From Desulfurococcaceae archaeon (GTDB taxonomy: Archaea; Thermoproteota; Thermoprotei_A; Sulfolobales; NBVN01): DNA of 39,298 nucleotides. The stretch spans positions 1 through 39,298 of the forward strand of contig JAJHQJ010000009.1 of NCBI GenBank assembly GCA_020833415.1, read 5' to 3'. This document shows positions 2,656-24,103 of this stretch, one piece after another. Below the pieces are notes generated by a model. It saw only the letters and a list, made by a program, of their open reading frames with translations. It had not been told where the DNA came from and searched no databases. The position numbers and the translations under genes are program-made. The stretch's first letter is position 1. Each line of letters begins with the position of its first letter.

Positions 2656-4029
2656 TTACTTCTTCGTGATCTCTGCTAGGAAGCTCTCCAGCGTGGTCCT
2701 GAATAGCCTGACCTCCTCCTCGCTGTGTACTAGGGACGGTAGTAGGTGTACGAGTCTCTCACTTACGTACAGCACTCCGCGGAGCCTTGCGTAGAGGTTG
2801 AGTACGTGCTCGATGCCCCTACTCCACCTAAGCTCGTGTACCTCCCTAGCGTTCCTAGGCCTAACCCTGGTGAAGTGTACGCCGCTCATAGTACCCGCAC
2901 CCGTGGTCCAGCACGGTAGACCCACCTCCTGGCACAGCCTATCCACGTCCCTCCTGAAGGCCTCCCACAGGGAGTTGGCCTTCTCGTAGAGCTCCCTGTG
3001 CTTAGCTAGGTACTCGACCACGGCCCTACCGGCCACCATGTTGACCGGGTTGCCCACGAAGGTCCCCCCGTGGAAGGACCTGGCCCTCGGGTCCGGGTAC
3101 TTCAGGTGGTCCAGCAGCTCCATAACCTCAGCCCTACCTCCGAACGCCCCGGCCCCCGCGAAGCCCCCTCCAACTACCTTACCCAGTACTACGAGGTCTG
3201 CCCTAACCCCGAAGTACTCCTGACCACCACCGGGGGCTAGTCTGAAGCCTGTTATAACCTCGTCGAAGACTAGTAGAGAGCCGTAGGCGTAGGTGAGGTC
3301 CCTGAGATCCTTCAGGTAGTTACCTACGGGGCCTATGCAGCCCCCGGCACCCAGTACCGGCTCTACGAAGATAGCCGCCACCGGGTACCTCTTCAGAACT
3401 CTCTCAGCAGCCTCCACGTCGTTGAAGGGTACGGTTAGGGTGTACACCAGGTACTCCTCTGGGAGCCCAGCTGACTCAGGACCTGTAAACGGTGGTGAGA
3501 CAGCTACGTGTAGGGCGTCGTAGCCCCCGTGCCACCCTCCCTCAACCTTAACTACGTACTTCCTCCTAGTGTAGGCCCTCGCGAGCCTTAGGGCGTACAT
3601 GTTCGCCTCGGTACCGCTGTTGGTGAACCTAACCATCTCGAGACCGGGTACTACCTTTGATAGTAGCTCAGCGTACTCAACTGCGTAGGGGTTCTCGTAG
3701 CCTAGGTGCGTACCCCTACCGACTACCTCAGCTACGGCCTCGAGGACGAACCTCGGGGAGTGTCCGAGTACGTGGGTTCCGTGGCCCATCCAGTAGTCTA
3801 CGTACTCGTTCCCATCTACGTCCCAGACCCTAGTAACGCTGGCCCTCTCTATGAAGACTGGGTAGGGTCTGAAGTACCTTATAGCGTAGGTAACCCCAGC
3901 CGGCATTACCTTAGACGCTCTCTCGTAGAGCTCCCTACTCCTCCTAGTCCTCTCTAGGTAGCCCCTCTCGAGCTGCTTGTAGAGCTCCTCGAGTTTCCTC
4001 TCCACGTCTGCGTAGGACATGGGGGTCAC
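2656..4029 (-). CDS. Class-III PLP aminotransferase, glutamate-1-semialdehyde-aminomutase-like
   Basis: A 457-residue fold-type I PLP enzyme. The PLP motifs are clear: FTNSGTEANMYALRLARAYT (phosphate loop), VFDEVITGFR, and the Schiff-base lysine in VVLGKVVGGGFAGAGAFGG, the pattern of glutamate-1-semialdehyde aminomutase (HemL) and related aspartate-aminotransferase-family proteins. HemL is normally near 430 residues; this one is slightly longer, with a charged N-terminal helix. No other haem gene is present. Instead the start overlaps the stop of a 2,4-diaminopentanoate-dehydrogenase-like gene by 4 bases, so the two are translationally coupled. I therefore read it as a transaminase or aminomutase acting on an amino acid handled with that dehydrogenase rather than as tetrapyrrole biosynthesis. 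The family is secure, the substrate unknown. Confidence 0.85.
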   Translation of the reverse strand: MTPMSYADVERKLEELYKQLERGYLERTRRSRELYERASKVMPAGVTYAIRYFRPYPVFIERASVTRVWDVDGNEYVDYWMGHGTHVLGHSPRFVLEAVAEVVGRGTHLGYENPYAVEYAELLSKVVPGLEMVRFTNSGTEANMYALRLARAYTRRKYVVKVEGGWHGGYDALHVAVSPPFTGPESAGLPEEYLVYTLTVPFNDVEAAERVLKRYPVAAIFVEPVLGAGGCIGPVGNYLKDLRDLTYAYGSLLVFDEVITGFRLAPGGGQEYFGVRADLVVLGKVVGGGFAGAGAFGGRAEVMELLDHLKYPDPRARSFHGGTFVGNPVNMVAGRAVVEYLAKHRELYEKANSLWEAFRRDVDRLCQEVGLPCWTTGAGTMSGVHFTRVRPRNAREVHELRWSRGIEHVLNLYARLRGVLYVSERLVHLLPSLVHSEEEVRLFRTTLESFLAEITKK

Positions 4030-5015
4030 ACGGAGAACTTTACCTTAAACGGGAGTAGGTCTGTCATTAGGTGTAGTCCTGGTGTCAGGTACGGTACCCT
4101 CTCGGCTACGTTTAGAACTACGGTAACCGTACCGAGGTCTCCGGGGGTACCGGTACTCCTCCACCTAACGCTGTACTCCCTACCCTCAACCTCCACCTCC
4201 TCGTACTCCGGGGCGCCTACGTAGGCGTGGAACTCGACCCTAATGACCTCCCTATCCCCTACGTACCCAGCTCCGTAGCCCGAGATACCCCTGTTCCTAC
4301 CCCTCTCAACCCTAATCCCGGCCGACTCCACGGTCTCCTCAGCCGGTACAACGCCCTGCCACTCAACTACCTTAGTTAGGTTGAGGTCCCCGGCTAGGGC
4401 TACCAGGTAGACGGACTCTGCGTAGCCTACGTGACCGGTTATCTCACCCCTAGTCAGCCTCTCCTCAACGAGCTTCGGGTCCTCGCCAACCCCTATCTTC
4501 TTCCTAAACGGCTCCCTCCTCCTAGCTGCGTCGAGGCTCCTCACAGCCCTCACCCTGGTGACCCTAGGTACTGAGGCTGCTATTACAGCTACGAGGGTAT
4601 CTAGGAGGTAGCCGGGGTTGATACCCGTACCTATCACCACCGAGCCGTAGGCCCTAGCCAGCTCGTCGAGTCTCTTAGCTAGTACCGGGTACCTGTAGTA
4701 CGGGTAGGACAGGGTCTCGCAGGTAGATACCACGTGGACACCCATCCTAACAACCGAGGCTATCTGGTCGAACACCCTATCCAGGTAGGACCCCGTAGCG
4801 TGTACAACTACATCAGCATCACCGAGCTCGTAGACGTCGTTGGAGACCTGGACACCTATAGGTCCAACACCCAGAAGCTCACCTACGTCCTTACCCAGGA
4901 TCCTCTCATCTATATCGACGGCCGCGACGATTTCGTAGCCGCGGTCGAGGGCTAGCTTAGTCGCGAGCCTACCTATAGCCCCGAAGCCGTATATACCTAT
5001 CCTCAAGTACGTCAC
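4026..5015 (-). CDS. 2,4-diaminopentanoate dehydrogenase-like NAD(P) oxidoreductase
   Basis: A 329-residue protein with an N-terminal Rossmann fold (RIGIYGFGAIGRLATKLAL) of the dihydrodipicolinate reductase/homoserine dehydrogenase superfamily. The motif GTGINPGYLLDTL near residue 150 and the overall length match the 2,4-diaminopentanoate dehydrogenase (Ord) family, which deaminates or reduces diamino acids in ornithine fermentation. Ornithine aminomutase partners are not in the window, so the literal pathway is not supported. The gene is the first of a two-gene operon with the class-III aminotransferase. A TATA box (GGTATAAATACC) is centred 26 bases upstream of the start codon, so the mRNA is probably leaderless. 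Family call is moderate; substrate unknown. Confidence 0.72.
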   Translation of the reverse strand: MTYLRIGIYGFGAIGRLATKLALDRGYEIVAAVDIDERILGKDVGELLGVGPIGVQVSNDVYELGDADVVVHATGSYLDRVFDQIASVVRMGVHVVSTCETLSYPYYRYPVLAKRLDELARAYGSVVIGTGINPGYLLDTLVAVIAASVPRVTRVRAVRSLDAARRREPFRKKIGVGEDPKLVEERLTRGEITGHVGYAESVYLVALAGDLNLTKVVEWQGVVPAEETVESAGIRVERGRNRGISGYGAGYVGDREVIRVEFHAYVGAPEYEEVEVEGREYSVRWRSTGTPGDLGTVTVVLNVAERVPYLTPGLHLMTDLLPFKVKFSV

Positions 5016-5272: not shown

Positions 5273-6289
5273 TTAGCTGGTTTTTATCTCATCTTCGTAG
5301 TTCCTCAGCATCTCATCTTTAACTCTGTGTACTAGTTCCTCCCCAGCTAGCCCCGGCAGCTTGCCGAGGACCCACATGAGCTTAACTGTAGCTGCTTCCT
5401 TACTCATGTCGTAGGCTGGTATGACCCCGCTATCTAGGAGTCTCCTACCGACTTCGTAGACCTCGAGGTTCACCCCTCCGTATGTTGATTGCGAGGTCAC
5501 TACTACCGGTACCCTACTAGATATTTTTGAGAGCTTCGCTATCAGCTCCTCGGGGAGCCCTCCCAGCCCGAATGACTCGACTACTATGCCCCTCACCCCG
5601 GCTGATAGGAGGGCTTCTATGAGGTCTGCTCTAATCCCTGGGAATGCCTTTAGGACAGCTATGGACCTATCGAATGATGCCTCCAGCTTCAGCTCCCCCT
5701 CCACACGCCTCGATGGTCTGTGCTCTACAGCCACTTCCTCACCGCTTACGCGGGCTATGTAGGGATAGTTAACCGATGTGAAGGCATCTACGCTTGCGGT
5801 ACTCACCTTACTAGCTCTAACTCCCAGGATAACCTTACCGTAGAACACTATGTAGACCCCTGAGAGCCCGAGCTTCGGTGCTTCCCTAGAGAAGACTAGG
5901 GAGTCCCACAGGTTCTTAGGTACGTCCGTACCGCTCTCCTCTAGGGTCTTCATGGACCCGGTGAGGGTTACAGGTTTTCTAAGCCCCCTAAGTGAGAAGG
6001 CTAGTGCCGCTGCCGTATACGCCATTGTGTCAGTACCGTGTAGTACTAGGAAGGAGTCGTAGTCCCGGTACTTCTCGTAGATTGTGGTAGCTATCTTAAC
6101 CCAGTCCTCTGGGCGCATTAGGGAGCTGTCGACCATCATCAGGTTGAGGATGTCTACCTCGATACCTGCCGGGAGCTTACCCCTCAAAGCCTTCTCAAGT
6201 ATCTCAGCAGCACCCATCCCCGGTGCCACACCCCTACTAGTTGCGACGCTAGCTATGGTGCCCCCAACACCTACTATGAGGACCCTCAC
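5273..6289 (-). CDS. L-asparaginase, type I
   Basis: Hydrolyses asparagine to aspartate and ammonia. The 338-residue protein has both catalytic threonine motifs: GVGGTIASV at the N-terminus and LHGTDTMAYTAAALAF near residue 85. It starts directly with the asparaginase fold and lacks the extra N-terminal domain of GatD, so it is a free asparaginase rather than the Glu-tRNA(Gln) amidotransferase subunit, and no gatE is adjacent. It follows the upstream gene by one base and is the last gene of a three-gene unit with a transporter and an uncharacterised protein, which points to amide amino-acid uptake and use. Confidence 0.9.
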   Translation of the reverse strand: MRVLIVGVGGTIASVATSRGVAPGMGAAEILEKALRGKLPAGIEVDILNLMMVDSSLMRPEDWVKIATTIYEKYRDYDSFLVLHGTDTMAYTAAALAFSLRGLRKPVTLTGSMKTLEESGTDVPKNLWDSLVFSREAPKLGLSGVYIVFYGKVILGVRASKVSTASVDAFTSVNYPYIARVSGEEVAVEHRPSRRVEGELKLEASFDRSIAVLKAFPGIRADLIEALLSAGVRGIVVESFGLGGLPEELIAKLSKISSRVPVVVTSQSTYGGVNLEVYEVGRRLLDSGVIPAYDMSKEAATVKLMWVLGKLPGLAGEELVHRVKDEMLRNYEDEIKTS

Positions 6290-6290
6290 C

Positions 6291-7466
6291 CTATCCGTAC
6301 CTCACCACCGTAGCGGGGTCTACGTACCTACTCCTAAGTACCTCTAAAGCCTCCTCATAGCTAGCTAGCACCTCCTCCGCGGATGCTAGGGCTACCTTAG
6401 CCATAGTGTCAGCATCATCCCTAGTGGCGTAGGGTATGCCGGCTTGGGCCATGTAGTCCTCCCCTACAGCCATGGACACCACCACCCCCGTCCCCGGTAC
6501 CAGACCTGCTGAGCCAACCACCTCAGCCAGCTCCTCACTCATGAAGAACACCCCTCCGAGGTCCTCGCAGACGACTCTAGCTAGCTCCGCGGTAGCTACC
6601 ACCTTATCCCGGGACTTAGTTGATCTCCCCAATGCTTCAGCCAGCCCAGCTATTCTAGTAGCTAGCTCCACCCTAACCTTCTCGAGGGATCTGGAGAACC
6701 TCGGGAAGGCTGTGTCTACCTCTAAGTAGCCTATGCCGAGTCTTGTGAGGGCCCTTGAGACAGCTCTAGCAACTGCTGTGTTATCGTAGTCCTTACTGTA
6801 CCTTAGGAGGATCGTCGAGCCCCTCACCCTACTAGCTAGGGACGGTATGAATGCCTTGCTCTCGAGGACTACTGTAGGTACCGCTACAGCCCCGAGCGAC
6901 TCCATAACGCTTCGCTTAGGCCCTAGCGGTACGTTGCCCTCTAGGTCCTCAACAGGCCCCACACCGCTACCTGAGCCGTTGACTGTTATAAGTACCGAGA
7001 GTGCCCCGCCGGGGAGGTCCGTGCTGAGCCCCCCAATAACGTCGGCCTCTCCCTCCAGCCGGCTGACTACGAAGCCCTTAACCCTCCTAGACACAGTATC
7101 TAGAGCCGCTACAGATAGCGCGTACTCCACTGCTGCGGGTACCTCATCGCACCCACCCCCACGTACCCTACCGAACAGCTTGAGGACTGCGAGGTGAGGT
7201 AGTGAGGAGTCCAAGCCTTCGAGGCCCCTCAAAATCTCGGACTCGAACTTGTTGAGTCCTCTACTAGGGGTCGCGCAGCCTATCCCCCCATCAGCTGTCT
7301 CGACGCAGAGGCGCCTCGGGTGGCTTACCCAGACCTTCCTAACAGATGTGTCGAAGTCGTAGAATCTGCGTACTAGTGCTAGTGCTGATGAGAACCCTAG
7401 GGAGTCGTCCTGTACGAAGCCGCTGTGACTGTGTGTATGTCCTACACCTACGTGGCCAGCTACCAG
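6291..7466 (-). CDS. Conserved archaeal protein of unknown function (GHVGVGHTHSHSG motif)
   Basis: The ORF track begins at a TTG (7232), but the frame stays open upstream and encodes what looks like a conserved core: AGHVGVGHTHSHSGFVQDDS followed by about 60 more residues. The His-rich motif HTHSH could bind metal. The upstream region contains no ATG, GTG or TTG in frame; a CTG at 7466 would give MVAGHVGVGH, and an ATA lies at 7484. I cannot name the family. The body is alpha/beta with a Gly/Ser-rich loop (TVNGSGSGVGPVEDLEGN). It sits between a GltPh-fold transporter and L-asparaginase with tight spacing, so a role in asparagine or aspartate handling is inferred only from context. Confidence 0.7.
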   Translation of the reverse strand: MVAGHVGVGHTHSHSGFVQDDSLGFSSALALVRRFYDFDTSVRKVWVSHPRRLCVETADGGIGCATPSRGLNKFESEILRGLEGLDSSLPHLAVLKLFGRVRGGGCDEVPAAVEYALSVAALDTVSRRVKGFVVSRLEGEADVIGGLSTDLPGGALSVLITVNGSGSGVGPVEDLEGNVPLGPKRSVMESLGAVAVPTVVLESKAFIPSLASRVRGSTILLRYSKDYDNTAVARAVSRALTRLGIGYLEVDTAFPRFSRSLEKVRVELATRIAGLAEALGRSTKSRDKVVATAELARVVCEDLGGVFFMSEELAEVVGSAGLVPGTGVVVSMAVGEDYMAQAGIPYATRDDADTMAKVALASAEEVLASYEEALEVLRSRYVDPATVVRYG

Positions 7467-7503
7467 AACACTACGCGAGGCTATTCCCCAGCTCTGTTTA
7501 GGG

Positions 7504-7534: not shown

Positions 7535-8821
7535 CTACCTAGACTTGAACTTCTGCTCATCGAAGTCCTTGAGGACTAGCTTGCTTATTACTAGGCAGCC
7601 CAGCGGGTCGCCCGTCACGTTCAGCATGGTGTTCGGCATGTCTATTAGTGTGTAGACACCGGCTATCCAGCCAACCGGCTCCATAGGTAGCCCCAGGGTC
7701 GACATAGTCATCGCAGCTATCACTATCCCACCACCAGGTACGCCAGCACATGCGGCTGAGCCTAGGAGACCCATGATCAGGGCCATGAACGTCCCCACAC
7801 CCCCGAGTGGCACATTGTACATCTGGGATACCCACACAGCGTATATGGGCATCTCAGCAGCTACTGCCTGCATGTTGATTGTTGCCGCTATAGGCAGTAC
7901 TATGCTGGCTACGTCTGCCGGTACTCCCAGCTCCCTAGTTACCCTCATAGTGACCGGTAGGGTCGCGCTGCTACTGCAGGTAGTGAAGGCTGTTAACATA
8001 GCTGGATATATCTTCCTCCAGAACCGGATCGGGCTGAGCCTCAGGATCGCTGCCAGCACTATCGGGTGGTAGATGAAGAGTACTATGGCGTAGCTGATCC
8101 ACTGTGTGACTATCATGGCCCCAACAGCTGTTAGCCCCATAGCCCCGACGGTAGCTGTTAGGTTAGCCATTAAGGCGAACACACCTATCGGCGCGTACCA
8201 GAGTATTAAGTCAATTATCTTGTAGATTACCGCTAGGATCGCTGCCAGCAGCTTCGAGAGGAACTCCTTGGTATCTGGTGAGAAGGTGCCTATCATAGCT
8301 ATCGCGAAGCCTGTTAGGAGGGCCATCACGATTATCTGGAGGGCGTTAAGCTCTAGGAACGGCTGGACGGGGTTCCTAGGTATGAGCCCTAGTAGGACGT
8401 CTACAGCTGAGGCAGGCTCCGGAGCTGTCCAGCCCTCAGGTGGCTTTAGCTGTAGGCCCACACCTGGGCGGAGTACCGTGGCCATCGTGTAGCCTGTAGC
8501 TGCTGATAGTATACCCATAATCGCCCAGTAGGTGAAGAACCCACTGAATATCTTACCGAGCCTAGTGTAGGTCCTGACAGTAGTCACAGCCCACGCTATC
8601 GATACGAATATTAGGGGACCTACAACGAACTTCAGTAGGTAGATGAATATATCGCCAAGGAACTTGATGCCGGTAACTGGCTGGCCAATACCTAACCCAG
8701 CGACAATACCGATCAGGGTAGCTAAGAGCATTAGCAGTGGTCTCCTCCCAGGCCTTAGAGCTAACTCGAAGGCCTCAGCTCCCCCAGAACCTCCGCTAGA
8801 GGAGCTCACGTAACTCACCAC
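7535..8821 (-). CDS. Dicarboxylate/amino acid:cation symporter, GltPh fold, with altered binding site
   Basis: A 428-residue membrane carrier of the glutamate transporter family. HP1 reads TCSSSATLPVTMRV, TM7 ATINMQAVA, HP2 AGVPGGG and TM8 DMPNTMLNVTGD. Relative to the aspartate transporter GltPh, D394, N401 and D405 are kept. Arg397, which pairs with the substrate side-chain carboxylate, is Asn. Thr314 of NMDGT is Val, the Na3-site Asp312 is Gln, and Asp390 is Tyr. It is therefore unlikely to carry aspartate like GltPh, and a neutral or amide amino acid is a reasonable guess given the downstream asparaginase. A TATA box is centred 25 bases upstream of the GTG start. Fold certain, substrate inferred. 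Confidence 0.9.
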   Translation of the reverse strand: MVSYVSSSSGGSGGAEAFELALRPGRRPLLMLLATLIGIVAGLGIGQPVTGIKFLGDIFIYLLKFVVGPLIFVSIAWAVTTVRTYTRLGKIFSGFFTYWAIMGILSAATGYTMATVLRPGVGLQLKPPEGWTAPEPASAVDVLLGLIPRNPVQPFLELNALQIIVMALLTGFAIAMIGTFSPDTKEFLSKLLAAILAVIYKIIDLILWYAPIGVFALMANLTATVGAMGLTAVGAMIVTQWISYAIVLFIYHPIVLAAILRLSPIRFWRKIYPAMLTAFTTCSSSATLPVTMRVTRELGVPADVASIVLPIAATINMQAVAAEMPIYAVWVSQMYNVPLGGVGTFMALIMGLLGSAACAGVPGGGIVIAAMTMSTLGLPMEPVGWIAGVYTLIDMPNTMLNVTGDPLGCLVISKLVLKDFDEQKFKSR

Positions 8822-14145: not shown

Positions 14146-15801
14146 CTACAGCTTAATAACCCTCCTTAGTACCGCCTCACCCCTGTAGTCGGGTAGTAGT
14201 ATAGGTGCTCTCCTGGACTCAGGTACTCCTAGAAGCTTCAGCTCCTCGGTAAAGCTCTCGAGGTGTTTAAGCGATACCCTGGGTTTAGGTAATCTCTTCA
14301 CCAGTCTAGATACTTCGATACCAGCCCTCCTACCGAATACGAAGATATCCGCAGTAGAATTTCCTACAAGTCTGTTCTTCCCGTGAATACCTCCGGTAAC
14401 CTCACCGGCTGCTAGGAGGCCGCCGAGGGGCTCGCCTGAGGGTCTTAGTACGTGGGTCCACTCATCGATTAGTACCCCACCGTTCTGGTAGTGTAGGGTT
14501 GGGTACGTAAGTATAGGCTCTACAGTTATGTCTATACCGTGCCTTAGGAACATCCTGTAGAGTGCTGGGAGTTCCCTCCTAATCGTACCAGAACCCTTCA
14601 ACATATCTATTACCGGGGTATCCAGCCACACACCACAGGTACCCGTTGGGGTTATAATGCCCCTACCCTCGGTACACTCCCTTATAATGGCCGAGGCCAC
14701 TACGTCTCTGGGTTCGAGCTCGTATACGAACCTCTGCCCCTTAGTGTTTACGAGCTGACCACCAATACTCCTAGTCTTCTCAGGTATGAGCTCGCCGAGT
14801 ATTGCCTCAGGCCAGGCAACTCCCGTTGGGTGGTACTGGAGCGTGTCTAGGTCTACTAAGCCTGCACCGACCCTGTAGGCTAGTACTAGGCCATCACCTG
14901 TAGCACCGTAGTGGTTAGTTGTGGGGAAGCCGGCTATGTGTAGCCTACCGATACCACCCGTAGCTAGTACGGTAACCTTACTACGTACAACTCTGTACTC
15001 CCCGGTATCGAGGTTTAGGAGTACTGCACCACTTACGGCACCGGTCTCGGGGTCGGTAAGTAGTTCTATAGCTGAGTGGAACTCCAGTACCGGGATCCCG
15101 AGGGCTCTTACCTCATCCTTCAGTACCCTCATAACCTCGAGACCTGTGTAGTCACCGCAGCAGTGTAGTCTAGGTCTCGACGCGCCACCACCTGAGAGTC
15201 TCTCCAGGTCTTCACCAACACGGCTCCACCTAACGCCGAGCCCCTCAAGCCACTTTATCACTAGGGGAGCCTCCTCGGCGAGGACCCTCACGAGCCTGGG
15301 GTTATTCGTGAAGTGAGCCCCTGCGAGGGTGTCTAGGTAGTGTATTACGGGGCTATCGTCAGGTCCTGTAGCTGCCTGGGTACCGCTCTGGTACTTTACG
15401 GTATTGCTATCCCCGAGTCTGAGCTTCGTTGCTATTAGAATACCTGTAGGGTCTACACCCTCCTCAACAGCCCACCAGGCAGCAGCTAGTCCAGCACCGC
15501 CCGAGCCCACGATCAGTACATCTACATCGTAGTCTACGTGGTCTAGGTCTACCTCACCGGGTCTAACAAGGGGCCAGGACTCCAGTAGGTCAGCTATCGT
15601 AGAGTACATCACCATTCCCTTACACGGCCCGACCCCGAGGGCCCTCTTTAGCTCAGGCTTGTAGTCCGGGTGCCAGGCCCTTACTATACTCTCCCTCTCG
15701 TCGAGGGTCAGGCGCCGAGGTGGGGGTGCTCTAAGCCTCTCCCTACGGGTCTCCTCAACTACCTCAATAGCCTTCCTAAGCTCCGGTGGGTACCCGCTCA
15801 C
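14146..15801 (-). CDS. Fumarate reductase/succinate dehydrogenase flavoprotein subunit, TfrA-like
   Basis: Catalyses fumarate to succinate (or the reverse) at FAD. About 90 residues precede the FAD-binding motif VLIVGSGGAGLAAAWWAVEEG. Conserved active-site segments are present: TGDGLVLAYRVGAGLVDLD with LQYHPTG, the substrate-region HYQNGGVLID, and NRLVGNSTADIFVFGRRAG near the C-terminus. The 551-residue length fits soluble archaeal and Aquificales fumarate reductases. It follows the iron-sulfur subunit directly (stop to start contact at 15801/15802). No cytochrome b or other membrane anchor gene is present, so electrons probably arrive from the soluble HdrB/iron-sulfur partners upstream. Direction of catalysis cannot be read from sequence, but coupling to hydrogenase favours fumarate reduction. 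Confidence 0.92.
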   Translation of the reverse strand: MSGYPPELRKAIEVVEETRRERLRAPPPRRLTLDERESIVRAWHPDYKPELKRALGVGPCKGMVMYSTIADLLESWPLVRPGEVDLDHVDYDVDVLIVGSGGAGLAAAWWAVEEGVDPTGILIATKLRLGDSNTVKYQSGTQAATGPDDSPVIHYLDTLAGAHFTNNPRLVRVLAEEAPLVIKWLEGLGVRWSRVGEDLERLSGGGASRPRLHCCGDYTGLEVMRVLKDEVRALGIPVLEFHSAIELLTDPETGAVSGAVLLNLDTGEYRVVRSKVTVLATGGIGRLHIAGFPTTNHYGATGDGLVLAYRVGAGLVDLDTLQYHPTGVAWPEAILGELIPEKTRSIGGQLVNTKGQRFVYELEPRDVVASAIIRECTEGRGIITPTGTCGVWLDTPVIDMLKGSGTIRRELPALYRMFLRHGIDITVEPILTYPTLHYQNGGVLIDEWTHVLRPSGEPLGGLLAAGEVTGGIHGKNRLVGNSTADIFVFGRRAGIEVSRLVKRLPKPRVSLKHLESFTEELKLLGVPESRRAPILLPDYRGEAVLRRVIKL

Positions 15802-16542
15802 CTACCCCACCTCTAGGGACTGAGGTAAACGACCTGTCTTCAGGAACTCCTCGTAGACTCTCCTAACCTCGCTAGTGGGCGTTGAGAGTAGCTTCTCAAA
15901 GACCTTGCCGTACTTACCACTCTCGATCTCCCTAACCCTCTCCTCCAAGGACTTCGACCTCGGTGTGTAGTAGAGACCTACGACCCTCCCTACAAGCCTG
16001 AACACCGGTGGGTGCCTTATCTCAGCTGGACACCTCAGACTACAGAGTCCGCAGGAGATGCAGTCGAAGGTTAGCTCCGCAGCCTTCTTAAGGTCCCCCC
16101 GTAGGATTGCCTGGATGGCGTCCATGGGGCTAAGCCCCTGTGGACAGGCCTTAGAGCACGCATTGCAGCTTACACACCTCGAGATCTCGGGGTACAGCTT
16201 GAGTACGTAACCTGGGTCTGGTCTAAGCTCACCCCTCTTAGGTACGTACTCCACGAGGGGGACGTAGGGTACTAAACTAATGTACATACCGTCCACTACG
16301 GCCGTCTGGCATGCTAGACCTACCCTAATCTTGTAGTCCCCGGGGAGTCTGTAGACTACCGGACACGCGCCGCAGAAGCCACCCCTACAGCCAGCACCAC
16401 GTGTAAACCTAAACCCAGCATACTCCAGGGCCTTCATTATCGTTAGGCCCTTGGGGACCCTGTAGGCCTCCCCGTTAAAGTATATGGTGAGGTATTCCCT
16501 TACTTGGTGAGCTCCCTCAATACCCGAGGTCAAGTCCCCCAC
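15802..16542 (-). CDS. Fumarate reductase iron-sulfur subunit, short TfrB-like form
   Basis: Carries electrons to the flavoprotein. An N-terminal plant-type ferredoxin domain has GCRGGFCGACPVVYR (2Fe-2S). A C-terminal alpha-helical domain has CVSCNACSKACP and CISCGLCSLRCP for two 4Fe-4S clusters. The 246-residue length equals an ordinary SdhB. Methanogen TfrB is longer because it carries HdrB-like CCG domains at its C-terminus; here that part is missing, and a separate HdrB lies immediately upstream. A good ribosome-binding site (AGGAGGT) precedes the GTG start, unlike most genes here, which fits an internal operon gene with a 24-base gap. Confidence 0.92.
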   Translation of the reverse strand: MGDLTSGIEGAHQVREYLTIYFNGEAYRVPKGLTIMKALEYAGFRFTRGAGCRGGFCGACPVVYRLPGDYKIRVGLACQTAVVDGMYISLVPYVPLVEYVPKRGELRPDPGYVLKLYPEISRCVSCNACSKACPQGLSPMDAIQAILRGDLKKAAELTFDCISCGLCSLRCPAEIRHPPVFRLVGRVVGLYYTPRSKSLEERVREIESGKYGKVFEKLLSTPTSEVRRVYEEFLKTGRLPQSLEVG

Positions 16543-16566
16543 CTAGAGTACCTCCTGGTAAACAAT

Positions 16567-17373
16567 TTAAGTCTCACCCCTCAGGGAGGCGACGACCTTC
16601 AGAGTTTCCGGACTTACCGCCTCACGTAGATTAGCTGCGTAGGCTACGAGCTCGGATAGGTGGACTACCTTTAGGTTTGTGTACCTTCTTAGGTTGTAGA
16701 GGCATAGTGGGCAAGGCGTTACAACTATGTCCGCACCGCTACTAGCAATACTCCGGGCTATCCTCTCAGTATTCCCTCTAACGATAGCGGGCTCTGCGAG
16801 TACGTGGAAGGAGCCGCAGCAGTACGTCCTATACGGGTACCTCACGGGTACCGCACCTAGGGCCTCCACAATTCTCTCGATTACCTGCGGATTGTCGGGG
16901 TTATCTACAGCTACGGCCCTCGGTCTTAGTAGCATACAGCCGTAGTAGGCCGCTACCCTAACCCCCCTCAACCTACCCTCCGCTAGCTTAGCTACATCGC
17001 TAAGCCTAGCTGAGATTACCTCGACTAGGTGAAGTACCCTAAGCCCCCCGCGGTACGGTTCGAGCTCGTCTCTCAGGTAGTCGGCTACCCTTACGTACTC
17101 ACCCGGTCTACTCACAGGTAGTTGCTCAGCCTGCCTCAGGGTATTGTAGCAGAAGGGGCAGGAGGTGACTACGGAGTCCGCTCCTAGTTCACGCGACTGT
17201 CTGTAGGCTACTGAAAGAGTTCTGAGGGAGGATACGTACTTTACGTGCTCCAGGGCTGTAGCACCGGGGAAGCCTCCGCAGCAGTACCAACTCGAGATCT
17301 CGACGACCCTATAGCCGAGAGCTGCGAGTAGTGCTAGGGAGGACCTCTCAACCTCGCTGAAGTCCCTCTTCAC
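16567..17373 (-). CDS. hdrB: Heterodisulfide reductase subunit B-like, CCG-domain protein
   Basis: HdrB binds two non-cubane iron-sulfur clusters through CCG domains. The first domain shows YCCGGFPG and SCPFCYNTL, the second YYGCMLLRP, TYCCGSFH and TPCPLCLYNL. The only in-frame start the ORF track finds (GTG, 17373) omits the family's N-terminal Y-Y-P-G-C, whose cysteine is a ligand of the first cluster. Those residues (LLYYPGCS) are encoded in the same frame just upstream, but no ATG/GTG/TTG precedes them before the hdrC stop. An ATG overlapping that stop lies one frame away. It follows hdrC as in hdrCB of methanogens, and next to the fumarate reductase it is the obvious electron exit of the Hdr complex. 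Confidence 0.88.
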   Translation of the reverse strand: MKRDFSEVERSSLALLAALGYRVVEISSWYCCGGFPGATALEHVKYVSSLRTLSVAYRQSRELGADSVVTSCPFCYNTLRQAEQLPVSRPGEYVRVADYLRDELEPYRGGLRVLHLVEVISARLSDVAKLAEGRLRGVRVAAYYGCMLLRPRAVAVDNPDNPQVIERIVEALGAVPVRYPYRTYCCGSFHVLAEPAIVRGNTERIARSIASSGADIVVTPCPLCLYNLRRYTNLKVVHLSELVAYAANLREAVSPETLKVVASLRGET

Positions 17374-17413
17374 GGAGCAGCCGGGGTAGTAGAGTAGGGT
17401 CTGCGTAGGCCAT
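17374..17413 (-). other. Out-of-frame or start-less 5' extension of hdrB
   Basis: Directly after the hdrC TGA the hdrB frame reads W-P-T-Q-T-L-L-Y-Y-P-G-C-S and then the GTG used by the ORF track. The ATG in the stop overlap (TGATG) reads MAYADPTLLP and needs a one-base skip, for example losing one C of a CCC, to give MAYADLLYYPGCS. Confidence 0.6.
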
Positions 17414-17802
17414 CACCCCGTCGACTTACGGGAGTAGGTAACGAGTAGTATTGAGGGGGTAGTCTCATCGATAGGTAGCTGACTATATGCCCTAGGCTCA
17501 ACACCGTTCTTAAGGGCTAACTGCCTTAGGGTCTCGACTACGAGGCCTGGAGCCACATCACGTGGACACTTATCTACACAGGTCATACAGGACACGCATA
17601 TCCATATGGACCTCAGCTTAGGTAGCTCAACACCACCTAGCTGTACGGCTCTAACTAGAGCTGCTGGGTGTAGGTCCATGAAGCTGGCAACAGGGCATAC
17701 AGCTGTACATAGACCGCACTGCATACAGGCGGTTACCTCCCTCCCGGTGTACTCCCTGATGAGTTCCCTAAGCTCTCTCGGGGTAAGCCTCAACCCTGCC
17801 AC
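17413..17802 (-). CDS. hdrC: Heterodisulfide reductase subunit C-like, two 4Fe-4S clusters
   Basis: A 129-residue ferredoxin-like protein with CMQCGLCTAVCP and CVSCMTCVDKCP, the two cubane motifs of HdrC, which relays electrons from HdrA to HdrB. Length and spacing are normal. Its start lies 13 bases inside the 3' end of the hydrogenase large subunit gene, so the two are translationally coupled. Its TGA lies in the same frame as hdrB, which leaves only a stop codon between the two; in methanogen HdrD the two proteins are one fused chain. Confidence 0.9.
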   Translation of the reverse strand: MAGLRLTPRELRELIREYTGREVTACMQCGLCTAVCPVASFMDLHPAALVRAVQLGGVELPKLRSIWICVSCMTCVDKCPRDVAPGLVVETLRQLALKNGVEPRAYSQLPIDETTPSILLVTYSRKSTG

Positions 17803-19253
17803 AGGACCTCACCCCTCTCATTGAGGACGACTATCCTAAACGAGACCGAGAGCTCCCTACTACCTACCCTTACGCAGTGCGTTGCACAACTGTTGCAGGG
17901 GTCGTAGGACCTGATTATACTCTCAAACGTAGCTACGGTCTCAGGACTCGGCCTACCCTCAGACCTCACCTCCTCCACTAGCCGTGCTGAAGCCTTACCT
18001 AGGCTAATGTTTATAGCTGTGTTATTTATCGTTGTCGGTGTGATTACCCTAGCTCTGGTAGCGACCATCCTATCGTCCATGCTGTAGTCGTGTATAAGGG
18101 TCCCCCTGGGGGCCTCGACGATACCTACACCCCTACTCCTAGGGCTACCCGCGAGGTCCACCAACTCCCCCTCGAGTAACTCCCTGGATTCGGTGAGTCT
18201 TTCGATCATCTCTAGGCAGTGCAGAACCTCAACCAGCCTAGCCCAGTGGTAGAGCACTACATTGGAGAGGGGCTTCCCCCCAGCTGCATCAATAAGCTTC
18301 CCGTACTCCTCGCTAGCCCTCTCACCGGGAACCTCCTTAGCTACGTTCAGCCTAGCGAGAGGACCTACCATCAGTGTCGACTCCTCACTAAAGAACTTCG
18401 GTCCGGCCGGCTTATAGTACGGGAGGGTCGCGTTATTCCAGCTAACTAGGGCCTCACCTACTACATTAGTGTACGCTGCCGGGTCCTCGACCTCCTCTAC
18501 GACCCTACCCTTCGAGTCTACCACCCGCAGGGTCCCGTCGTAGAGCTCTAGAGAGTCGCCTCTAACGAGCCCCATACTGTAGCACCTCATGCTGAAGTCC
18601 TCCCTCGCTAGGAGCCTCCTGAACTGCCCGCTCCTGGCAATCCTCTCCTCGAAGAACCTGCGGAGCTCCTCAACGGCCTTACCCACCTCCGCTAGAGTAC
18701 TCCTAAGCTCCGCTAGATCCTCCTCGGTAAGCCCCCTACATACACCACCCGGTAGGACTAGGGATCCGTGCTGGATCTTACCCACAAACCTCTTCTCCGC
18801 CTTCTTGAGTAGGCTACGTGTTCTTAGAGCTATTGATGCGACCCCGGGGTTCTTAGACATTAGCTTAACTATGTCCCTACGGTCCTCACCCCAGAGGACC
18901 AGGTCGGGGAGCCCTATGAAGGTGAGGTGCAGTAGGTGGCTATCTAGGACCTGGATGTAGTTTAGCAGGGTTCTAGTAAGCCTAGCCCTTACAGGTGGTC
19001 TACGCCCTAAGAGGGAGTCGACAGCCTTACCTGAGACTAGGTGGTGGGACCAGCTACAGAATCCGCATATAGCAGACATCACCTTCGGAAGATCCTCCAC
19101 GTGACGGCCTACAGCTAACTTCTCGAACCCTCTGAACTCCATTATCTGGTAGAGTGCTCTAACGTCCCTACCGTCGGTGACTACCACTACCCTAGCTACA
19201 CCCTCAACTAGGGTGACCGGGTCTAGGGCTATTATGGGTCTGTACCCAGCCAT
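17790..19253 (-). CDS. mvhA: NiFe hydrogenase large subunit, MvhA-like (group 3)
   Basis: Bears the NiFe site that oxidises H2. Both cysteine pairs are intact: ICGFCSWSHH at residues 62-70 and DPCNSCATH near the C-terminus. After the terminal His there are about 28 more residues (CVRVGSRELSV...), which fits a C-terminal peptide removed by a maturation protease during nickel insertion. At 487 residues the length is normal for Mvh-type enzymes. It lies between the small subunit and hdrC, a methanogen-like arrangement. No hyp maturation genes occur in the window. Confidence 0.93.
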   Translation of the reverse strand: MAGYRPIIALDPVTLVEGVARVVVVTDGRDVRALYQIMEFRGFEKLAVGRHVEDLPKVMSAICGFCSWSHHLVSGKAVDSLLGRRPPVRARLTRTLLNYIQVLDSHLLHLTFIGLPDLVLWGEDRRDIVKLMSKNPGVASIALRTRSLLKKAEKRFVGKIQHGSLVLPGGVCRGLTEEDLAELRSTLAEVGKAVEELRRFFEERIARSGQFRRLLAREDFSMRCYSMGLVRGDSLELYDGTLRVVDSKGRVVEEVEDPAAYTNVVGEALVSWNNATLPYYKPAGPKFFSEESTLMVGPLARLNVAKEVPGERASEEYGKLIDAAGGKPLSNVVLYHWARLVEVLHCLEMIERLTESRELLEGELVDLAGSPRSRGVGIVEAPRGTLIHDYSMDDRMVATRARVITPTTINNTAINISLGKASARLVEEVRSEGRPSPETVATFESIIRSYDPCNSCATHCVRVGSRELSVSFRIVVLNERGEVLWQG

Positions 19254-19256
19254 ACC

Positions 19257-20213
19257 CTACCCCCCTCTACGTAGTACCCTCAACCTGTAGGCCGACGACT
19301 TCCTCAAAGTGTACCTGTAGAACGACCCCACTACATCCCTAATCTTATCCAGCTCCCTAGCTAGACCCCTCTCCAGGGCCACCTTCTCGGAGTCGACCAA
19401 GAGTACCGAGGCTAGGGTGGAGATCATCGAGAGACCGCTATCGGAGCCGTACTCTACAGGACCCCCGCACCCTGTACAGGGGTAGTTCACCTTAATACAG
19501 CTGTGGTCGCAGATAGCCCTCGTAGCTGGCCCCATGCAGAGGATCCCCTGCTCTAGGAAGCACCTACCCTCCTCAGGTCTGACCTCGTAGAGCCTCCTAA
19601 TACCTGGCATCACTATCTTAGTCGTCTTAGGGTTCCTAGGGCACCTACTGCACAGAGACTCGGGGTCCCCTAGCAGGACGGGTCTAGCCTCGAGCTTCCC
19701 GGTTTCCGCATAGCGTATCAGTAGTTCGAGGAGCTGGTCTAGTACCTTATCGTCCGGGGGGCAACCGGGGGCTAGTATGTCAGGTTCGACCAGGTCTGTG
19801 TATGCTGCGTAGTTCACGGGCTGTGGGAGGCTTAAGGCGTCCCCCTCAACCCTTACATCCACCTGCGAGGCTATAGACTCACGGATCTCTGCGGGGCTGT
19901 AGATAGAGTTTAGACCGGGTATATCACCGTAGACGCTGCAGGTCCCGAAGGACACCTTAACGCGAGCCTTAGCAGAGACCTCCCTCGCTAGCCTAGCGTC
20001 CTCCTCTGTGGATATACCACCCATGTGTATCAGTACGTCGACGCTATCGAGCTTCAGGAACTCGGAGAGCTTCCTATCTACAGCTGTAGGCCAGTAGACC
20101 ACCTCGTAGTACTCTAGAAGCTTAGCGAGCTTCTCACCTAGACTCGCTAGAGCTACGTCGCAACCCCCGCAGACAGCCCCGGGAACTACGGCCAGTCTAA
20201 GCACGTCTACCAC
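19257..20213 (-). CDS. mvhG: NiFe hydrogenase small subunit, MvhG-like
   Basis: Relays electrons from the NiFe site through iron-sulfur clusters. The proximal cluster motif is CGGCDVALASLGEK at the N-terminus, with FGTCSVYGD and LAPGCPPDDKVLDQL following, and a cysteine-rich C-terminal half (LCSRCPRNPKTT, YPCTGCGGPVEYG) for further clusters. The start lies 17 bases inside the mvhD gene. The three-base gap to mvhA makes this a tightly coupled trio. Confidence 0.92.
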   Translation of the reverse strand: MVDVLRLAVVPGAVCGGCDVALASLGEKLAKLLEYYEVVYWPTAVDRKLSEFLKLDSVDVLIHMGGISTEEDARLAREVSAKARVKVSFGTCSVYGDIPGLNSIYSPAEIRESIASQVDVRVEGDALSLPQPVNYAAYTDLVEPDILAPGCPPDDKVLDQLLELLIRYAETGKLEARPVLLGDPESLCSRCPRNPKTTKIVMPGIRRLYEVRPEEGRCFLEQGILCMGPATRAICDHSCIKVNYPCTGCGGPVEYGSDSGLSMISTLASVLLVDSEKVALERGLARELDKIRDVVGSFYRYTLRKSSAYRLRVLRRGG

Positions 20214-20610
20214 CTAGAGGACCGAGCTTCCTAACCTCCTCAACAAAATCGTTAACTACCCTAGCCAGCTTAGGAGCCTCAGTAGCACTAATCCACTCCA
20301 ACCTAAGTCTCTCAGGTTCTATACCGACCTGCTCCAGCAGTTTCCTAACGAGGTGCACCCTCTTAAACGCCTTAAAGTTCCCGGATACGTAGTGACAGTC
20401 ATTGGGTGTGTGACAACCGCCTACGAGAACGCCGTCAGCACCGTTTAGGAAGGCGTCGACTATCATCGCGGGGGAGATCCTGCCGGTACACGGAACTATC
20501 ACCGGGATAACGCCCGGATCGTAGCGTAACCTCATAACACCCGCGGTTTCAGCTGCTGCACCAGCACACCACCTACAGAAGAACGCGACCACCCTAGGTC
20601 TCCAGGACAC
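20197..20610 (-). CDS. mvhD: Methyl-viologen-reducing hydrogenase delta subunit, MvhD-like
   Basis: The 2Fe-2S adaptor between the Mvh hydrogenase and HdrA. The 137-residue protein shows the family pattern VVAFFCRWCAGAAAE, VPCTGRISPAMIVDAFLNGADGVLVGGCHTPNDCHY and GNFKAFKRVHLVRKLL. It follows hdrA with a one-base gap. Its presence argues that the hydrogenase docks on HdrA rather than acting alone. Confidence 0.93.
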   Translation of the reverse strand: MSWRPRVVAFFCRWCAGAAAETAGVMRLRYDPGVIPVIVPCTGRISPAMIVDAFLNGADGVLVGGCHTPNDCHYVSGNFKAFKRVHLVRKLLEQVGIEPERLRLEWISATEAPKLARVVNDFVEEVRKLGPLGGRRA

Positions 20611-20611
20611 C

Positions 20612-22540
20612 CTACACCACCCCCAGTACAGCTCTAACTACTGCTAGGGCCTGCTCATCGCGGTAGTTCCTTAGCTGTATAGCTCCAACAGGACACGAAG
20701 CCGTGCACGCACCACAGCCCTCGCAGAGTACCTCGTTAACGCGGGCCCTACCCTCGACGATCTCGACAGCACCGTACGGGCATACGGTTACGCAGACTCT
20801 ACACCCATTACACTTATCCCTATCTACCTCAGCAACGATAGGCTCCTTCTCGATGTAGCCCTTCAGGAGTAGCTCGGCAGCCTTAGCAGCGGCACTCGCA
20901 GCCTGAGCTATGGACTCGGGTATGTCCTTAGGTCCCTGCGCGGTACCGGCTACCAGCACACCCGCAGTAGGGGTCTCAACAGGTCTTAACTTAGGGTGTA
21001 CCTCGCTAACGAACATGAACTGGTCTACGGGTATCTTCAGCATCTCAGCGAGTCTCCTATCGAGAGCTGATACCATACCTGGTGCTAGGACGACTAGGTC
21101 GGCCCTAACAGTGAACTCGCGGTTGTCTAGGAGGTCGAACCCCTCAACTACTACGTCACCCGTCGCTGCATCTCTATACACTCTCGATACCCTACCCTTA
21201 ATGTACACAGCCCCATGTTCCTGGGCTCTCTTGACGAACTCCTCAAAGCCCTTACCACCGGCTCTCACATCGATGTAGATTACGTAGGCCTCACCCTCAG
21301 GTACCCTCTCGAGGAATAGTAGGGCGTGCTTAGCCGTGTACATACAGCATATCTTTGAGCAGTACGGTAGGTGGTTAACATCGCGTGAGCCAACGCACTG
21401 TACGAAGACAACCCTCCTCACGGGTCTACCGTCGCTCGGTCTTCTAATCTCCCCACGTGTAGGTCCCTGGACGTCCAGTATCCTCTCGAACTGTAGGGAG
21501 TCTATAACGTCATTCGCAGCTCCGTAGCTGTACTCGGGTATCTTCTCAGCTGGGTAGAGCTCGTACCCTGTAGCTACTACTATAGCCCCTACAACCTCCT
21601 CTACAACCTCACTCCGCTGCTCTAGGTCTACAGCCTTAGCCGGACATACCTTAACGCAGCGACCGCACTTAGTGCAGTGCTCGAAGTCTACTACGTAGGC
21701 TGAGGGTACTGCCTGGGCGAAGGGTATGTAGATAGCCTTCCTCCTGCTGAGTCCCCTGTTAAACTCGCTGGGGACCTCAACCGGGCATACCCTCTCACAG
21801 AAACCGCAGAGAGTGCACGTACCCACCTTAACACCCCTAGGTCCAACCCTTATCCTCACCTTGAAGTTTCCTACGTAGCCCTCAACGCTCTCAACCTCAG
21901 CTAGGGTGTATATCCTAACTAGTGGATGTCTCGCTACCTCAGCCATAAGCGGGGTTAGTATACACTGCGCACAATCCAGTGTAGGGAAGGTCTCGTGTAG
22001 CATCGCCATCTTACCCCCTATAGTTGGTGACTTCTCGACCAGTACTACCGGTATACCCATCTTAGCTAACGTGAGGGCTGCCGTTATCCCAGCTATACCC
22101 CCACCTACAACAAGAGCCTTCTTCACTGCACTAACCTTAACCGGCTCGTAGGGCTTGTTACCGAGTAGCTTAGCAACAGCTCCCGCAATAATCCTCACAG
22201 CCTTCTCCGTAGCTATGTCCTTGTCTAGGTGGACCCAGCTATCGAGTTCCCTGATGGAGGCCATCTCAAGCCTATACCTGTTCAGACCCGCCCTCTCAAC
22301 TACCCTCGCGAAGGTCTCGAGGTGTAGCGATGGTGTGCAGGCGGCTACGACTACACCGTCTAACCCGTACTCCCTAATAGCCCTAGCTATGAGCTCCTGC
22401 CCAGGCTCGGAGCACATGAAGACGTAGTCCTCCGCGTAGACTACCCCGGGGAGCTTTCTAACCGCCTCAACAACCTTCTTAACATTGACTACTCCGGCTA
22501 TGTTAACACCGCAGTGGCATATGAAAACCCCTATACGCAT
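20612..22540 (-). CDS. hdrA: Heterodisulfide reductase subunit A-like, bifurcating FAD iron-sulfur protein
   Basis: A 642-residue HdrA of full length. The N-terminal region carries MRIGVFICHCGVNIAGVV; FAD binds at VVGGGIAGITAAL (residues 145-157). Internal ferredoxin motifs are CTLCGFCERVCP and CTKCGRCVKVCP, and the C-terminal pair is CNGCRVCVTVCP and CEGCGACTASCP. DCAQCILTPLM contributes further cluster ligands. In methanogens HdrA splits electron pairs from H2 between ferredoxin and the HdrBC branch. Here a TATA box lies about 39 bases upstream within the 66-base gap after fumarase beta, so the Hdr-Mvh-fumarate reductase genes can be transcribed independently of malic enzyme and fumarase. 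Confidence 0.95.
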   Translation of the reverse strand: MRIGVFICHCGVNIAGVVNVKKVVEAVRKLPGVVYAEDYVFMCSEPGQELIARAIREYGLDGVVVAACTPSLHLETFARVVERAGLNRYRLEMASIRELDSWVHLDKDIATEKAVRIIAGAVAKLLGNKPYEPVKVSAVKKALVVGGGIAGITAALTLAKMGIPVVLVEKSPTIGGKMAMLHETFPTLDCAQCILTPLMAEVARHPLVRIYTLAEVESVEGYVGNFKVRIRVGPRGVKVGTCTLCGFCERVCPVEVPSEFNRGLSRRKAIYIPFAQAVPSAYVVDFEHCTKCGRCVKVCPAKAVDLEQRSEVVEEVVGAIVVATGYELYPAEKIPEYSYGAANDVIDSLQFERILDVQGPTRGEIRRPSDGRPVRRVVFVQCVGSRDVNHLPYCSKICCMYTAKHALLFLERVPEGEAYVIYIDVRAGGKGFEEFVKRAQEHGAVYIKGRVSRVYRDAATGDVVVEGFDLLDNREFTVRADLVVLAPGMVSALDRRLAEMLKIPVDQFMFVSEVHPKLRPVETPTAGVLVAGTAQGPKDIPESIAQAASAAAKAAELLLKGYIEKEPIVAEVDRDKCNGCRVCVTVCPYGAVEIVEGRARVNEVLCEGCGACTASCPVGAIQLRNYRDEQALAVVRAVLGVV

Positions 22541-22573
22541 CTTAGCCGACCCACAGGTGTTGTACGAGGATAG

Positions 22574-22583
22574 AGTTAAAAAG
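22574..22583 (-). promoter_or_regulatory. Internal TATA box in front of hdrA
   Basis: CTTTTTAACT on the minus strand is centred about 39 bases upstream of the hdrA ATG, in the only sizeable gap (66 bases) of the 11-gene block. It allows separate transcription of the electron-transfer module. Confidence 0.55.
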
Positions 22584-22606
22584 ACATAGGGTTTGACCTC
22601 GGGTAG

Positions 22607-23203
22607 CTAGAGGGGTCTCTTCAGGAGCTCTTCCTTCTTCTTAACGCTCCTCTCGAGGACCTCCTCTATTAGGTTCCTACCGGTACTGTCTATAGCTACG
22701 ACCAGGGGTCCGAAGTCCTCTACCTCGAGGACCCAGACAGCCTCAGGTATGCCGAGGTCTAGCCAGTGTACATCTACAACACGCTTAATGGACTGTGCAG
22801 CTAGAACAGCAGCACCTCCTGTGTATGTAGCGTAGACAGCACCGTACTTAGCACAGGCCTCAGCAGTCCTCCTACCCATACCACCCTTACCGATAACTAT
22901 CCTAACACCGAGTTTCTCTATAACCTCATACTCGTAGAGCTCCATCCTAGCACTAGTCGTAGGCCCTCCCGCGATTACAACCCACTGACCGTCCCTCTTA
23001 GCTACTACCGGTCCACAGTGGTATACCACACCACCCCTAAGGTCGAAGGGTAGGGGTTTACCCTCCTTTAGGTAGTCGATGATACGTCTATGGGCAGCAT
23101 CCCGCGCGGTGTAGATTACCCCGGTTACGTACAGTATATCCCCTACACGTAGCTTCCTCACATCCTCCTCAGATATGGGGGTCCTAAGCCTGTACTCCAC
23201 CAT
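22607..23203 (-). CDS. Fumarate hydratase class I, beta subunit
   Basis: C-terminal half of the two-subunit archaeal iron-sulfur fumarase, interconverting malate and fumarate. Family features in the 198-residue protein are VGDILYVTGVIYTARDAAHRR, VYHCGPVV, AGPTTSARM-like AGGPTTSARM, and IGKGGMG followed by AVYATYTGGAAVLAA. The ATG is preceded by GGAGGGTGG, an internal-gene ribosome-binding site. It follows the alpha subunit after 12 bases. Confidence 0.93.
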   Translation of the reverse strand: MVEYRLRTPISEEDVRKLRVGDILYVTGVIYTARDAAHRRIIDYLKEGKPLPFDLRGGVVYHCGPVVAKRDGQWVVIAGGPTTSARMELYEYEVIEKLGVRIVIGKGGMGRRTAEACAKYGAVYATYTGGAAVLAAQSIKRVVDVHWLDLGIPEAVWVLEVEDFGPLVVAIDSTGRNLIEEVLERSVKKKEELLKRPL

Positions 23204-23215
23204 AGGTCCACCCTC

Positions 23216-24103
23216 CTACTGCGTTATGGAGTACTCACCCGTAGGCTTAATAGTGACGGTAGCTCTCCTAGCAGCCCAGCACTGGAACACAACAGCTACT
23301 GCGTAGGTTGCTGGGTGTCTGTAGGCGTAGTCGATGTGAACCGCCAGCGCAGTAGTCCTACCGCCCATACCCATAGTACCTATACCTAGCTCGTTAACCA
23401 TCTCCAGGAGCTTCCTCTCTAGTTCAGCTACCGCTGGCTCTGGGTGCCTCGACCCCACCTTCCTTATAACAGCACACTTCTTAGCTAGGTGTACAGCCAT
23501 ATCTACCGTACCAGCAATACCGACACCGATTATCGTTGGTGGGCAGGGCATAGCGCCGGCCTTAACGACGGCGTCGAGTACCACCTCCTTAACACCCTCA
23601 AGTCCCCTACCCGGGGGTACCATGGTGAAAACAGCTACGTACTCCGAACCCCCACCTTTAGGGACTATAGTTACCTCTAGGTAGTCCCCCTTGGGGTCGA
23701 TGGAGTCCCAGACCACTACTGGGGTGTACCTACCGGTGTTATCGCCGGGGTTACGCCCTGTTATCGGGTCTACACTGTTGGGTCTAAGGGGGATCTCCTT
23801 AGTAGCTATGCGCGTAGCCTCTACCAGGGCCTCCTCTACGACATCTAGTGCGGGGAACCTAGCCCCAGCCCTAACGTAGTAGGTTATGAGGCCGGTATCC
23901 TGACATATCGGGGCTCTAAGCCTCTCCGCTAGCTCTACGTTCCTGAGTACAGCCTCGAGCTGAGCCTTCGCAGCAGGGCTTACCTCCTCCTCGTAGACCC
24001 TCCGTAGAGCCTCCTTAACGTCCGGTGGTAGGAGTATTGAGGCTACTCTAAGCCCCTCAACAACGGCCTTAACTATAACCTCCCTGAGGTTCACCATTAC
24101 CAC
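23216..24103 (-). CDS. Fumarate hydratase class I, alpha subunit
   Basis: Supplies the 4Fe-4S catalytic cluster of the two-subunit fumarase. Conserved segments are RAPICQDTGLITYYVRAG (first cluster cysteine), VPKGGGSEYVAVFTMVPPG and CPPTIIGVGIAGTVDMAVHLAKK (second), with GIGTMGMGGRTTALAVHI near the end. At 295 residues it is full length. The GTG start overlaps the malic enzyme TAG by one base. Together with malic enzyme it would form fumarate from pyruvate and CO2 via malate, or the reverse. Confidence 0.94.
   Translation of the reverse strand: MVMVNLREVIVKAVVEGLRVASILLPPDVKEALRRVYEEEVSPAAKAQLEAVLRNVELAERLRAPICQDTGLITYYVRAGARFPALDVVEEALVEATRIATKEIPLRPNSVDPITGRNPGDNTGRYTPVVVWDSIDPKGDYLEVTIVPKGGGSEYVAVFTMVPPGRGLEGVKEVVLDAVVKAGAMPCPPTIIGVGIAGTVDMAVHLAKKCAVIRKVGSRHPEPAVAELERKLLEMVNELGIGTMGMGGRTTALAVHIDYAYRHPATYAVAVVFQCWAARRATVTIKPTGEYSITQ

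Follow-up and report, generated by a model that had tools for sequence, protein, structure and literature searches.

An SLC1-family transporter with altered substrate and sodium sites is linked to an unannotated protein family in archaeal and bacterial gene cassettes

Introduction

The SLC1 family includes the human neurotransmitter transporters as well as the archaeal symporters GltPh and GltTk, which carry aspartate together with three Na+. In GltPh, the third sodium ion (Na3) is bound by T92, S93, N310 and D312 together with the backbone of Y89, and the D312A mutation kills the activity of the protein (PMC3302783). Y317 makes a cation-pi contact, or stacks, with R397 (PMC12668577). Position 397 sets the acidic or neutral specificity of these carriers. 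The R397C mutation changes GltPh from an aspartate to a serine and alanine carrier and also weakens its Na+ coupling, and asparagine is also carried by ASCT2 (PMC5750217). Uncoupled carriers of the AncInt and Ext-Int type adjoin genes for amino-acid enzymes, and metabolic pull was proposed for them (Reddy et al. 2025, PMC12668577).

Herein, a stretch of 39,298 nucleotides from a thermophilic Desulfurococcaceae archaeon (contig JAJHQJ010000009.1), called the window, was analyzed around a transporter gene of this family. GltPh numbering is used for the transporter residues throughout. The main novelty of the locus is a fixed cassette that contains an unannotated protein family.

The transporter gene and its fold

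The SLC1/SDF-family transporter gene lies at 7535..8821 on the minus strand, starts with GTG and encodes 428 amino acids. The protein matches the Pfam SDF profile PF00375 over positions 4-386 of 387 with 307.8 bits (cut-off 27.9; E 1.5e-91). Its AlphaFold model, with a pLDDT of 79.1, superposes on the inward-facing GltPh structure 6x15 with a TM score of 0.82 and an rmsd of 2.7. According to the model, the transporter is an elevator-type SLC1 protein with HP1 and HP2 hairpins. None of the NCBIfam equivalogs scored above its cut-off. The DctA, GltP and SstT models remained far under theirs, and the SstT equivalog NF010151 reached 97 bits against a cut-off of 308. A scan for consensus promoters and terminators yielded no more than shuffled sequence did.

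Substrate and sodium sites

The window transporter shares its family, its fold and the residues D394, N401, N310, M311 and D405 with GltPh and GltTk. It differs from them by R397N, D390Y, T314V, Y317E, R276C, T92M, S93G and D312Q and belongs to a different clade. An earlier note on this DNA had named D312Q, T314V, D390Y and R397N, with D394, N401 and D405 as kept, and the alignment to GltPh agrees at all seven positions. The alignment adds Y89W, T92M, S93G, R276C, G306A, G313A, Y317E, T352C and G396P.

Most of these changes fall into four aligned segments, all on the minus strand. The TM3 part of the Na3 site (8513..8527) carries Y89W, T92M and S93G. In TM7, NMQAV replaces the NMDGT motif (7862..7876), with N310 and M311 kept and D312Q, G313A and T314V exchanged. 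Y317E follows at 7853..7855. The TM8 segment (7607..7654) holds the substrate and Na1 residues in the pattern Y390...D394..N397...N401...D405. The Na3 side chains T92, S93, N310 and D312 of GltPh are thus represented by M92, G93, N310 and Q312, and the only one left, N310, is shared with Na1. The Na1 residues N310, N401 and D405 are all present. The arginine of GltPh-type carriers is N397 in 7/7 archaeal copies. R397, Y317 and D390 are all replaced, which indicates a joint exchange of the entire arginine network. To our knowledge, N397 has no characterised equivalent.

The loss of the arginine is shared with ASCT1, ASCT2 and GltPh-R397C, which carry neutral substrates. The ASCTs retain the NMDGT motif, whereas the window transporter combines N397 with Q312 and lacks the Na3 site. 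Similarly, E. coli SstT, a Na+/serine-threonine carrier, has no R397, D312 or T92/S93 and keeps N310, M311, D394 and D405. It is very distant in sequence, however, with E397, a gap at 390 and another gene context.

Conservation and phylogeny

The altered sites are highly conserved. The orthologues in six other Thermoproteota assemblies (L034-L039; 76-87% identity) are identical to the window transporter at these ion and substrate positions, with V/I at 355 as the one exception. The copy of Thermovorax subterraneus (Bacillota, 59%) differs at F92, Q276, A349 and F396 only. The Bacillota relatives L074, L083 and L084, at about 41-43% identity, have W89, P295, A306, H312, A313, C314, E317, M318 and Q327, followed in TM8 by Y390, D394, P396, N397, N401 and D405. 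No complete member of the cassette clade has lost N310, M311, N401 or D405. The same site pattern in the orthologues, largely common to the Bacillota relatives, indicates selection rather than drift. The family of the transporter is ordinary, and its sites are unusual, real and conserved.

One clade of the maximum-likelihood tree (100/99) unites the archaeal proteins, seven in number, with those of Thermovorax, L074/L083/L084 and the more distant L041 and L044. This clade stands apart from GltPh, GltP/DctA and AncInt, and so it remains when SstT and TcyP are added (support 96-100). It is therefore not placed next to AncInt as an Ext-Int protein would be, while the deep branching order among the SDF clades is weakly supported (52). 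The archaeal transporters are sister to the Thermovorax copy (100/100), and this grouping suggests a transfer between domains.

In the Thermovorax locus (L040), the transporter is frameshifted (6531/6417) and the partner gene is truncated, with in-frame TAGs beyond, by decay or assembly error. This copy is the one point in favor of regarding the window transporter as a decaying, non-functional gene. All seven archaeal copies of the transporter are intact and do not vary at the site residues, and decay is very improbable.

The cassette and its partner protein

The gene that follows the transporter, called the partner gene, lies at 6291..7484 on the minus strand and encodes about 398 amino acids. 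Its frame is open from 7538 down to 6291, and full-length homologues support the long form. The likely start is an in-frame ATA at 7484, about 50 bases past the transporter stop. No ATG, GTG or TTG is found near the conserved N terminus, either in the window at 7484 or in L034 at about 1597. The default call starts at TTG 7232 and is too short, and the apparent 300-base gap after the transporter results from this call. A type I L-asparaginase gene (5273..6289, minus strand) begins two bases past the partner stop. It matches TIGR00519 with 294.5 bits against a cut-off of 260.5, and its catalytic motifs GGTI, HGTDT and the Lys motif are intact. The same-strand order is thus transporter (ending at 7535), partner gene and asparaginase (6289-5273). 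The earlier note had placed the asparaginase in the same operon as the transporter. Strand and closeness agree with a putative operon, but the partner gene stands between the two.

The most constant neighbor of the transporter is the partner gene, not the asparaginase. The partner gene adjoins the transporter in 7/7 archaea and in six bacteria (Thermovorax, L074, L083, L084, L085 and L086), the pairs of L085 and L086 sitting at contig ends. The asparaginase adjoins the partner gene in 4/7 archaeal loci (the window, L034, L035 and L036) and in eight bacterial loci. The contigs of L037 and L039 end just after the partner gene; L038 has room beside it and no asparaginase there. A genome search for an asparaginase elsewhere in these three incomplete archaeal assemblies returned GatD-like matches only in G438 and G439 and none in G436. 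The gene order is transporter-partner-asparaginase in the archaea and L074, and partner-asparaginase-transporter in Thermovorax. The differing orders make linkage by function likelier than linkage by descent alone. The DAP-dehydrogenase-like and class III aminotransferase genes downstream (2656-5015) were rejected as cassette members, being absent near the orthologues.

In L087, L088 and L089, the partner gene occurs with a different, CitMHS-like carrier. This is a membrane-protein family of 420-430 amino acids in the place of the SDF gene (L087:10298-11575, L088:7881-9170, L089:3533-4795). It resembles CitMHS only weakly and matches nothing in NCBIfam. A type II-like asparaginase is also present in both L087 and L088, together with an aspartase in L088 and with the carriers Dcu and DcuC in L087.

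The partner family has no significant match in Pfam and NCBIfam, searched with loose limits, or in a PDB sequence search. The model of the partner protein has a pLDDT of 83.7 and a pTM of 0.85. Foldseek against PDB and viral models gave nothing significant. No PDB structure reached E 0.001, and the best of the weak fold matches were M42/M28 aminopeptidases (best E 0.009, TM up to about 0.3). An hhalign comparison of the family with M42 peptidases did not support this similarity (probability 4.5%). H14, H19, D29, D30, E117, E182, E185, E211, R231, D237 and D311 are invariant across 17 family members. This set of H, D, E and R residues suggests that the partner protein may be a metal-dependent enzyme. 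The gene is scarce: it occurs in 2/398 sampled Thermoproteota genomes and in 11/399 from the Bacillota group, where one copy is a remnant. A protein family without Pfam or NCBIfam annotation is fixed in asparagine/aspartate cassettes across two domains of life.

The partner gene was also found once on a Fusobacteria plasmid (L072, CP102408.1). There it lies with a Crp-like regulator and a divergent sulfopropanediol dehydratase cluster with a sulfite exporter, and neither an SDF gene nor an asparaginase gene is beside it.

Substrate of the transporter

The earlier note expected a neutral rather than an acidic substrate. The replacement of R397, Y317 and D390 in the window and its relatives argues for the same. 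D394 and N401 are kept while R397 is lost, and by analogy with GltPh-R397C the substrate would therefore be a neutral alpha-amino acid. D394 would hold the amino group and N401 the carboxylate, as in GltPh, while the side chain of the substrate would meet N397, V314, Y390 and E317 in place of the arginine network. The imported product would then feed the cassette, namely the enzyme-like partner protein and, usually, the asparaginase (Asn to Asp + NH3).

Asparagine, also proposed in the earlier note, is plausible given the asparaginase in the cassette, but the constant companion is the partner gene. The presence of the asparaginase, of the aspartase in L088 and of C4-acid genes in the vicinity still makes it the first choice among single substrates. 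The related cassettes with aspartase (L088) or Dcu/DcuC (L087), and the fumarase, fumarate-reductase-like, Hdr and hydrogenase cluster of the window, point to Asn/Asp/C4 metabolism. The probable cargo of the carrier is thus asparagine or a comparable neutral amino acid, imported with a reduced number of Na+ or with none. In its full form, a neutral alpha-amino acid carrier, most likely for asparagine, that lacks the Na3 ion and feeds the cassette, this reading is one that we hold with about half of full confidence. Among the papers searched, none described an SLC1 carrier that is characterised for asparagine and accompanied by an asparaginase.

The substrate could instead be another compound handled by the partner protein, such as D-asparagine or a modified aspartate, with the asparaginase downstream or a sideline. 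The partner gene is the steadiest neighbor, and the transporter-partner pair also occurs where no cassette asparaginase was found. The partner gene with a CitMHS-like carrier in L087 and L088 likewise suggests that the true substrate may be what the partner protein acts on. The invariant residues H14 to D237 of the family are those expected of a metal enzyme. However, the asparaginase is adjacent in most of the loci counted above, and the partner protein has no known activity. This alternative is less likely than asparagine.

Ion coupling

The earlier note also expected altered ion coupling from the loss of D312. For Na3 this expectation is supported: the side-chain ligands are replaced, the neutral Q312 occupies the place of the former contact between Na+ and D312, and the ion would no longer be bound. 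A loss of Na+ coupling as such is not supported, because E. coli SstT is altered likewise (L92, G93 and A312) and is annotated as a serine/threonine:Na(+) symporter. With Na1 (N310, N401, D405) kept, the carrier would use at most two Na+, or work by uncoupled exchange or facilitation pulled by metabolism.

The form of the asparagine-carrier reading that we prefer, with confidence that is evenly divided, is an SstT-like Na+-coupled neutral amino-acid symporter in which Na3 alone is lost and Na1 and Na2 drive concentrative uptake with one or two Na+. SstT has N310, M311 and D405 without the same Na3 side chains, so that one or two Na+ may suffice. The Na+-site residues [M/S]311 and [D/E]405 of Reddy et al. 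(PMC12668577) are both kept in the window transporter, and the L311/N405 pair that marks H+ coupling is missing. That all complete clade members retain N310, M311, N401 and D405 mildly favors remaining Na+ use. However, the window transporter is placed apart from SstT in the tree (long branch), the environments of Na2 and Na1 are changed by T352C and G306A, and P295 and Q327 are the states of the uncoupled AncInt. These two residues bear on the alternative of an AncInt-like exchanger or facilitator with ion-free binding, in which uptake would be pulled by intracellular hydrolysis through the asparaginase and the partner enzyme. Like most Ext-Int proteins, the window transporter has an incomplete Na+ signature and does not carry the one for H+. 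It also carries C276, P295 and Q327 and lies next to amino-acid enzyme genes, as is the case for AncInt and Ext-Int. Reversal of P295/Q327 restored Na+ coupling in AncInt, but forward substitutions of this type failed to uncouple AncNa, which stayed coupled (PMC12668577). Moreover, the pair is not diagnostic: the same-genome paralogue L001 has both residues with intact Na+ sites. P295/Q327 was rejected as proof of uncoupling, both being present also in L001, L015 and GltP. Closeness to AncInt by bit score was rejected as well, since AncInt gives the highest score with L001 as well (279 vs 219 bits for GltPh). AncInt itself keeps all Na+ sites and R397, binds aspartate and belongs to another clade, and the fully conserved Na1 residues of the transporter clade need a reason. 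Uncoupled transport is a minority possibility, below the SstT-like symporter.

A proton-coupled carrier, with Q/H312 or E317 as the protonated group, is quite unlikely. T92M is one of the three H+ signature residues and the bacterial members have H312, but Q312 cannot be protonated. Against the H+-coupled GltP/GltT pattern of [A/L/I/V/M/F]92, L311 and N405, the window transporter has M92, M311 and D405, one of three, and it lies outside the GltP/DctA clade.

D312 is held essential in GltPh and the EAATs, yet a conserved natural clade exists without D312, T92 and S93. This clade offers a thermophilic test case for the role of the third Na+ and for whether residues can replace an ion in evolution. 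More speculatively, and we consider this proposal doubtful as a whole, in this SLC1 clade of Thermoproteota and Bacillota Q312 or H312 (neutral or protonatable) would replace the third Na+, and the carrier would form an obligate pair with the partner enzyme family, both serving a cassette dedicated to taking up and degrading asparagine-type substrates.

The wider window and other SDF genes

A further cluster of the window (14146-25446, minus strand) encodes a fumarate-reductase-like flavoprotein, HdrA/B/C-like proteins, Vhu-type hydrogenase subunits, a two-subunit fumarase and malic enzyme. From its gene content, it looks like a cluster for H2-dependent fumarate reduction. The L087 cassette is paired with HdrA and C4-dicarboxylate carriers. 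An attractive though putative route would convert Asn through Asp and fumarate into succinate, H2 serving as donor; no aspartase gene lies beside the window cassette.

Other SDF genes also carry unusual sites. A third paralogue in the same genome (L003, G000:C18:4257-5420) is rewritten as well, with N310H, T314S, Y317L, D390M, R397S, F89, L92 and A93. An archaeal SDF clade with L001, L015, L016, L020 and similar copies has intact Na+ sites and R397, yet P295 and Q327. This clade is a natural test of the P295/Q327-uncoupling proposal from AncInt. L041, from Clostridium sp. Cult2, has Y390, A397, E317 and N312 near aminotransferase and 2-oxoacid oxidoreductase-like genes, and is another putative neutral amino-acid carrier. 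Tandem SDF pairs in L048, L049, L050, L057 and L052 have S311, with H312, D312 or N312, and G394 (A394 in one L052 copy). G394 or A394 indicates that the amino-group site is altered too in these pairs.
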